Of a stretch of DNA of 24,775 bases, positions 5,945 through 15,079 are shown one piece after another. Numbering within the stretch: position 1 is the stretch's first letter; each line of letters opens with the position of its first letter. This stretch comes from a virus, in the IMG/VR virus record IMGVR_UViG_3300028925_001568, positions 1-24,775 of that record. One strand, given 5' to 3'. The notes beneath the pieces were generated by a model. That model had not been told where the DNA came from. It was given only the letters and a program-made list of their open reading frames with translations, and made no database searches. The translations under genes and the position numbers were made by a program.

Positions 5945-5977
5945 ACATATTGTAAAAATAATATTTTACATATTGTA
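5945..5977. promoter_or_regulatory. Putative operator pair in the divergent HTH/Sak4 promoter region
   Basis: Two direct copies of ACATATTGTA (5945-5954 and 5968-5977), 23 bp start to start, flank the dyad TGTAAAA-6 nt-TTTTACA (5951-5970). The second copy overlaps a -35-like TTTACA (5965-5970), followed 18 nt later by TATAAT (5989-5994), a plausible rightward promoter for the Sak4 gene. The same near-palindrome recurs at promoters in the 13-15 kb region. Binding by the adjacent HTH protein is inference. Confidence 0.6.
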
Positions 5978-13289: not shown

Positions 13290-13458
13290 AATTACTCCTT
13301 TTATATGTATGGTTAATAAAGTGTGAGGCTTTGTTTATAATCTCGTTTGTTACTTTCAAAGGTTTTTAAGCTTTGCCGACTATATAGTAGTTTGCTGAAA
13401 GTAGAGTACAGGTATCATTTAATAGCTTACCTCTTCTATGTGCTAACCTCACTATCTA

Positions 13459-13486
13459 ATGATACATTATGTATCTAACATGTCAA
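13459..13486 (-). promoter_or_regulatory. Leftward promoter with an embedded operator
   Basis: On the minus strand TTGACA (13486-13481), a 16-nt spacer, and TATCAT (13464-13459). The perfect palindrome GATACAT-T-ATGTATC at 13461-13475 covers the -10 and most of the spacer, so bound protein would block RNA polymerase. A second copy of the core, ACATAATGTA, lies just upstream at 13499-13508. It would drive the six leftward genes. Confidence 0.68.
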
Positions 13487-13620
13487 GCATTATAGTCAAC
13501 ATAATGTAACTAATTAATATAATGTAATGTATTTATATGCAGGGATTTTGTAAGTTAATCGCATTACCCTTGTCTCTTGATCACTCGCTAAATAAAAAAG
13601 CTAGACACAATGGCTTAACA

Positions 13621-13658
13621 GTCGGGTCGGTAGTCGGGGTGTCGGGATAATCAATCGG
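13621..13658 (+). repeat. GTCGGG repeat cluster A
   Basis: GTCGGG at 13621, 13633 and 13641, plus TCGG and ATCGGG variants, in otherwise AT-rich DNA. Followed by an A/C-rich tract and then the inverted repeat AGATCC (13717-13722) / GGATCT (13738-13743). Confidence 0.75.
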
Positions 13659-14098: not shown

Positions 14099-14123
14099 AG
14101 CCCGACCTAGTGTCGGGTTTTTT
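14099..14123 (+). terminator. Terminator of the 85-aa gene; source motif of the GTCGGG repeats
   Basis: CCCGAC (14101-14106), loop CTAGT, GTCGGG (14112-14117), then six T. The 3' arm hexamer is repeated three more times just downstream, at 14126, 14133 and 14141. Confidence 0.92.
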
Positions 14124-14125
14124 AT

Positions 14126-14146
14126 GTCGGGAGTCGGGCTGTCGGG
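14126..14146 (+). repeat. GTCGGG repeat cluster B
   Basis: Three GTCGGG hexamers (14126, 14133, 14141) directly after the T-run of the terminator. Each could pair with the single CCCGAC arm at 14101. Confidence 0.85.
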
Positions 14147-14194
14147 ATTACTTGCCAAGTGCAGGAACTAACACAAACATAACACACACAGGAT

Positions 14195-14247: not shown

Positions 14248-14275
14248 TTGACATTTTGTAGACAGTTGATATAAT
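14248..14275 (+). promoter_or_regulatory. Strong promoter of the small RNA
   Basis: Consensus TTGACA (14248-14253), a 16-nt spacer and consensus TATAAT (14270-14275). The operator core ACATTTTGTA (14251-14260) overlaps the -35. Transcription should begin near 14281-14284. Confidence 0.85.
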
Positions 14276-14281
14276 TAGGGT

Positions 14282-14422
14282 ACGTTAAGTGCATTACTTA
14301 TCTGACATGTAGGGAAGACTCAACAACAAAGGAGCAAATTGCTCACAGCCCAATGAGGCACAGAGAGATTCCGCGAGTATAAGTAACCACGAGTTAAAGC
14401 CCGTTCAGTCGGGCTTTTTTTT
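14282..14422 (+). ncRNA. Putative phage small RNA, about 140 nt
   Basis: A perfect sigma-70 promoter and an intrinsic terminator bound a stretch with no credible ORF. Predicted structure by hand: TTACTTAT (14294-14301) pairs with ATAAGTAA (14379-14386) as a long-range 8-bp helix enclosing a small hairpin GAGCA-AAT-TGCTC. Alternatively TAAGT (14286-14290) pairs with ACTTA (14296-14300). The 3' end is the terminator stem. AAAGGAG just before the small hairpin looks like a ribosome-binding sequence, but no frame of more than 14 codons follows. It may be a regulatory RNA, a decoy, or the leader of a micropeptide. No known RNA family recognised. Confidence 0.62.
14396..14422 (+). terminator. Terminator of the small RNA
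   Basis: AAAGCCCG (14396-14403), loop TTCAGT, CGGGCTTT (14410-14417), within a run of eight T. The 3' arm again contains GTCGGG, repeated at 14425. Confidence 0.93.
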
Positions 14423-14536
14423 ATGTCGGGATTCGGGATAAGTTTGTCGTTCCAAGCCAAGAGTAAACACAATAGGAGGCCTAACACAGGATCCAGGAGG
14501 CGCAGATCCGAGCCCTGGTGTGGATGTTTGCTGAAG

Positions 14537-14565
14537 TTGACAAAATGTATCTGGTATGGCTTAAT
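14537..14565 (+). promoter_or_regulatory. Promoter of the 51-aa gene group
   Basis: TTGACA (14537-14542), a 17-nt spacer and CTTAAT (14560-14565, 4 of 6 consensus bases). The operator core ACAAAATGTA (14540-14549) overlaps the -35. Confidence 0.65.
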
Positions 14566-14821: not shown

Positions 14822-15079
14822 ATGACTATGACTGACAAGATAGCCAGCACTGCGGCCACACACAATGAGGCTAACAGATCTTCCAGGTCTTACGGATATG
14901 TCGGGTACTGTCATGTCGGGAAGCCAAGAGTCTGGTCTATGTCTTTGCAAGACTGCGAAACACAAGCAAAGGAGTTTGCCCGGTCACGGCCGCGGCATCT
15001 GACCCGGAAAGGTATATTTATCTACAAGTTAGCAGAAGAAAAAGAATTAATTAAGGTGTTGACATTATGTAACCAATAG
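14822..15079 (+). CDS. Hypothetical basic protein containing GTCGGG repeats (85 aa)
   Basis: Not recognised. The centre reads YGYVGYCHVGKPRVWSMSLQ and then DCETQAKEFARSRPRHLTRK, the latter resembling conserved helical parts of small phage proteins. Two GTCGGG copies (14900, 14915) encode the Val-Gly pairs. It is more GC-rich than its neighbours. There is no ribosome site before ATG 14822 or the alternative ATG 14828, so it probably depends on coupling to the micropeptide 6 bases upstream. The last codons contain the -35 of the next promoter. Confidence 0.6.
   Translation: MTMTDKIASTAATHNEANRSSRSYGYVGYCHVGKPRVWSMSLQDCETQAKEFARSRPRHLTRKGIFIYKLAEEKELIKVLTLCNQ

Follow-up and report, generated by a model that had tools for sequence, protein, structure and literature searches.

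A conserved promoter–terminator unit without a usable reading frame in a phage contig very probably encodes a structured small RNA

The window, by which we mean the whole stretch of DNA analysed, comprises 24,775 bp of a marine bacterial virus with about 36% G+C (IMG/VR record IMGVR_UViG_3300028925_001568), and encodes a terminase, a portal protein, a primase and a cytosine methylase. By terminase and portal, the nearest described phages are 023Pt_psg01, DSL-LC04 and the SAR11 phages HTVC027P and HTVC023P, with identities of 58–63% for the terminase and 44–48% for the portal. Among genome records, the one close match is a gammaproteobacterial MAG whose terminase is 82% identical to that of the window; the host clues diverge, as the nearest isolates grow on SAR11. 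Positions 14248–14422 comprise a promoter and a terminator, and the roughly 115 nt between them hold no usable frame; the small genes adjoining this unit matched no protein family. The unit and the related regulatory sites are as follows.

14248–14275, plus strand: sigma-70-type promoter, TTGACA-16-TATAAT, matching the consensus at 12 of 12 positions.
14251–14260, plus strand: operator-like motif ACATTTTGTA, overlapping the -35 box and common to neighbouring phage promoters.
14281–14420, plus strand: small RNA as modelled, with a predicted start at 14281–14283 and a body of about 115 nt followed by the terminator.
14396–14422, plus strand: intrinsic terminator with U8, placed at 14396–14417 with a T run extending to 14422.
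13461–13475, 13499–13508, 14251–14260, 15062–15071 and 5945–5977 (two sites): ACATnnTGTA sites at phage promoters.

The first-pass annotation of this DNA had reported an ORF-less unit bounded by a consensus promoter, the nearest to consensus in the window, and an intrinsic terminator. Both points were borne out, the promoter being the sole 12/12 match at 16–18-bp spacing; a second 12/12 match, at 15059, has a spacing of 19 bp. The two elements were also found in all five distinct homologous sequences described below, with a promoter match of 11/12 in contig L146 and terminators 96–100% identical. Promoter-like matches were not enriched as a class in the window (34 vs 38.4 expected from shuffles), and terminator-like sites were (14 vs 5.3). 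When the window and eleven other loci were scanned for promoter–terminator units without a sizeable frame, the window yielded no further example; a scan of all loci with a narrower promoter motif returned the RNA unit in its homologues and one different unit in contig L029.

The motif ACATNNTGTA (ACATnnTGTA) occurs seven times in the window against 1.45 expected, a count reached by none of 100 shuffles. The copies at 14251 and 15062 lie in the -35 region, and those at 13464–13508 in a divergent promoter region, with a full-dyad operator-like site, GATACATTATGTATC, at 13461–13475. The RNA unit and its neighbours probably belong to one phage regulon, under a regulator acting at the ACATnnTGTA sites. 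An earlier proposal that the RNA might serve as a decoy for the operator-binding protein found no support, because ACATTTTGTA, in the -35 region, is untranscribed.

The RNA unit was identified in seven other IMG/VR contigs (L143, L144, L145, L146, L148, L149 and L150), each found by three separate RNA anchors; together with the window, these eight carry five distinct RNA sequences in three sublineages. Contig L017, reached by a terminase query, is the same contig as L150 and aligns over the whole unit within a 700-bp region; L088 is likewise identical to L145. A covariance model, R1, scored the window RNA at 162 bits and all homologues at 159–167 bits. It detected no further members in the fetched loci and 78 whole records, where weak matches corresponded to common terminators. 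Upstream of the unit lies a gene of the MRRFEQ.. family, 30–100% identical to the window copy, with a second small gene interposed before the RNA unit in the L017/L143/L144/L145 type. Downstream, where the contig extends far enough, a MYKI.. gene usually follows, replaced by an unrelated gene in L146. In four relatives (L010, L049, L051 and L053), a promoter and the MYKI gene come immediately after the upstream terminator, without the RNA, and the majority of related phage records searched lack the unit. The RNA is therefore an accessory cassette, sporadically present in related phages.

No reading frame is conserved across the RNA homologues. The longest frames within the unit comprise nine codons (ATG at 14353) and seven codons (GTG at 14289); for the longest plausible frame of 14 codons noted previously, no counterpart with a start codon was found. 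A micropeptide messenger had also been suggested, and in the window the AAAGGAG stretch does lie upstream of the nine-codon frame. This ATG, however, is AAG in the L143 type, the next longest frame has seven codons, the homologues differ by three 1-nt changes in length, and the GAG of the Shine–Dalgarno-like stretch is paired. The length differences, the loss of the ATG and the want of a common frame exclude the suggestion, and we regard a peptide product as scarcely credible. The product of the unit appears to be a folded RNA and not a protein; its predicted parts are as follows.

14289–14301, plus strand: 5' strand of helix P1, GUG (14289–14291) and UUACUUAU (14294–14301), with the same fold in all homologues folded.
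14302–14312, plus strand: 5' side of internal loop J1/2, CUGACAUGUAG, nearly invariant.
14313–14321, plus strand: 5' strand of helix P2, GGAA, GA and CUC.
14332–14344, plus strand: hairpin P3, GAGCA-AAU-UGCUC, holding the GAG of AAAGGAG.
14348–14359, plus strand: hairpin P4, GCC-CAAUGA-GGC.
14363–14372, plus strand: 3' strand of P2, GAG, a bulged A, GA and UUCC.
14373–14378, plus strand: 3' side of J1/2, GCGAGU, invariant.
14379–14390, plus strand: 3' strand of P1, AUAAGUAA (14379–14386) and CAC (14388–14390), again with the same fold.

The predicted folds of all forms share one architecture, in which P1 is followed by the internal loop, P2 and a three-way junction bearing P3 and P4; the tandem G-A of the P2 3' strand may pair with 14317–14318. 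The 8-bp helix annotated at first pass (14294–14301 with 14379–14386) appears in the minimum-energy fold of every homologue folded, and what it encloses proved to be another helix and a two-hairpin junction rather than one short hairpin. The AAAGGAG stretch had been described as single-stranded, which is correct only in part, its GAG (14332–14334) being paired in P3; this hairpin is one pair shorter in the L143 type. A role as ribosome decoy, also put forward, is unsupported because this Shine–Dalgarno-like GAG is base-paired in all forms. The fold energy is modest with the terminator (z = -2.7) and unremarkable for the body without it (z = -1.4 to -1.65). The phage-encoded packaging RNA of phi29 resembles the window RNA in having a closing helix and a three-way junction. 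The window RNA differs in coming from another phage type, in lacking an Rfam match and in its sporadic occurrence; an RNA essential to the packaging motor would be expected in every member of its phage group.

The sequence of the body is kept above that of the flanking DNA in the relatives. Over the positions aligned between the window and L143, identity is 84% in the body and 96% in the terminator, compared with 66% in the upstream linker and 52% in the downstream linker; the flanking proteins are about 30% (upstream) and 73% (downstream) identical. These values bear on the reading of the unit as the decayed remnant of a protein cassette that kept its promoter and terminator by chance. Neighbouring cassettes of the same layout do bear small genes, but decay would not predict a body far better conserved than the linkers, which makes this origin very improbable unless the lineages parted very recently.

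Substitutions avoid the pairs. Among the 128 modelled columns, of which 64 are paired, 21 are variable, and 3 of these 21 are paired against about 10 expected (P=2.7e-4), a count obtained with P3 put in register by hand, an adjustment that touches P3 alone. In the unadjusted alignment, paired columns account for 7 of the 26 that vary (P=0.007); when the single-sequence fold of the window replaces the consensus, they account for 6 of 21 (P=0.0015). All three paired columns that vary keep pairing. Two are the sides of a compensatory change at 14319/14365, CUC-GAG in the window vs AUC-GAU in the L143 type, which turns C-G into A-U; the third, at 14295/14385, is an A/G change opposite U (U-A/U-G) that retains pairing in P1. 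The classical covariation score, comprising one compensatory pair and one G-U change with 94% of cells paired, was not significant, being reached by shuffles in 56/500 cases on an alignment in which P3 was misregistered by one column. Covariation is weak because diversity is small, with in effect two sequence groups. Within the unpaired regions, 16 of the 17 columns of J1/2 are invariant (P=0.014 vs other unpaired columns), and the presumed G-A pairs and P4 with its flanks are nearly so. The segments that vary are the leader at the 5' end, the A-rich strand of the junction and the strand that precedes the terminator.

Conservation alone cannot tell DNA from RNA function, and the unit stands in an array of repeated linkers, so we considered that promoter and terminator might be mere parts of a DNA-level element, such as an origin or a site of packaging or recombination. 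We hold it to be improbable: the substitutions track RNA pairing and include a compensatory change, the repeats are the linkers and not the body, and absence from most related records searched argues against an essential role of such kind. Taken with the promoter and terminator kept in relatives, the conservation and the placement of substitutions give good support to a small-RNA gene, and 14248–14422 is very probably a real RNA gene. That it is a conserved phage RNA gene can be claimed strongly; its mechanism can be put forward only conditionally.

ALTERNATIVES and known kinds were weighed for this mechanism, namely antisense, leader, DNA element, remnant and peptide. The position of the RNA right after a strong promoter and before a terminator would suit a cis-acting leader that steers terminator readthrough into the downstream gene, be it a riboswitch, an attenuator or an antiterminator. 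The HK022 put RNA, a folded nascent RNA that acts in cis to suppress termination, similarly lies directly behind a strong phage promoter (PMC9378689). In contrast to put, the window RNA runs at once into a conserved terminator, and the gene downstream, which differs between relatives, comes with a promoter-like site of its own (TTGACA at 14537). The same gene arrangement also occurs without the RNA, and a different gene follows in L146, so the RNA is not the leader of the downstream gene. Nor was a terminator/antiterminator switch found, as pairing of any body stretch with the terminator arm would be too weak to compete (at best -5 to -6 kcal/mol, vs about -12 for the terminator itself). We thus rate control in cis as unlikely.

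A trans-acting antisense RNA, with an unpaired segment directed at host or phage mRNAs, perhaps with Hfq, is possible, if on the doubtful side. The A-rich junction strand AACAACAAA is open, the U8 tail is long, and this is the commonest mode of known phage small RNAs (PMC12197685). However, it is this open A-rich strand, together with the 5' end, that varies most; no 12-nt complement was found in the rest of the window or in L017, and the two lineages had no target in common within the incomplete phage genome. Base-pairing phage small RNAs such as lambda PreS and OOP, P22 sar and VP882 VpdS (PMC12197685) are similarly thought to tune host or phage genes; in the window RNA, by comparison, no complementary target was found, and the conserved part is an internal loop and not an open seed.

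The reading we prefer, held tentatively, is a stand-alone, regulon-controlled gene for a structured small RNA that acts in trans through protein binding at the loop. Transcription of an RNA of about 140 nt would begin at the unit's strong host-type promoter and stop at its terminator, and this structured RNA would most likely act in trans. The invariant loop (CUGACAkGUAG / GCGAGU) and adjoining G-A pairs might be bound by a host or phage protein, which the RNA would then titrate or redirect during infection. A bound internal loop is favoured over an antisense seed because the loop is invariant and changes occur both in the A-rich strand of the junction and in the 3' single strand, a preference drawn from few sequences, and loop invariance could instead reflect short divergence. 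The RNA probably does a job during infection. Of the trans-acting RNA first envisaged, the small-RNA gene has stood; action in trans is an inference, and no target was found in the phage sequence searched. A sponge for CsrA was dropped, as GGA motifs, inspected by eye, are few and none lies in a hairpin loop.

We regard the RNA as a new family of a known kind, phage small RNAs. None of the Rfam 15 families matched in the window (best sub-threshold score 15.6 bits vs a gathering threshold of 42), and an Rfam scan of the locus, DNA similarity to a reference phage collection and a gapped pattern in GTDB genomes gave no match. Three DNA patterns in IMG/VR retrieved the same true homologues plus chance matches, and a fourth, based on P1, added non-homologues alone. 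One match, in L175/L176 (L175:5853-5948), had both P1 arms at L143-type spacing, antisense to an SNF2-like helicase gene. It was set aside as its core is unrelated (16/75), the sites are missing from related helicases and the phage itself is no near relative; the P1-arm match is probably coincidence. The nearest kind in the literature comprises small RNAs encoded by virulent phages, among them T4 band C and D and PAK_P3 sRNA1/2 (PMC4933390). Like the window RNA, these known non-coding RNAs are phage-encoded and of unknown or unproven function, but they come with expression data, whereas the window RNA is known from comparative evidence. The literature searched on HTVC023P-type phages does not mention non-coding RNAs.

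Expression, pull-down and deletion work would have a concrete target here, a conserved RNA whose promoter, fold and invariant loop are well defined and which standard gene calling would overlook. A broader view, which we consider doubtful, is that the RNA represents a new structured class in an abundant marine group, titrating a host protein via its loop and carried as cargo of interchangeable promoter–cargo–terminator cassettes; if so, the second, unrelated ORF-less cassette, in L029, would mean that these phages habitually carry RNA cargo.

The L029 unit (1533–1740), in a related phage contig, has a different sequence, a 9-bp closing helix (UGAUGUGUU/AACACAUCA) and a fold z of -2.9, and yielded neither an Rfam family nor a homologue. 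In another relative, a strong hairpin, GTAGTCAGG/CCTGACTAC, separates the end of a gene from a terminator (L063:3697-3796). Within the window, GTCGGG-type stretches recur at 13623–13647, 14123–14147, 14422–14446 and 14897–14921. The last lies inside a gene; copies after terminators belong to shared intergenic linkers composed of GTCGGGAGTCGGG, then AACACACA, then GATCC, before the next promoters, and such linkers could permit cassette exchange. On the minus strand, a conserved region at 13290–13450 precedes the MGTRSN gene, with a frame of 43 aa in L146 (IPVLYWDANAF...) that is shortened in the window. Finally, a micropeptide, MQGFCKLIA..., may be encoded almost without a leader at 13537–13650; short frames related to it occur in L144, L145 and L146 (MQGF[WY]RLIASVPSL) and in L017 (MARCSGLIASAPSL), and several of the changes among them look synonymous.
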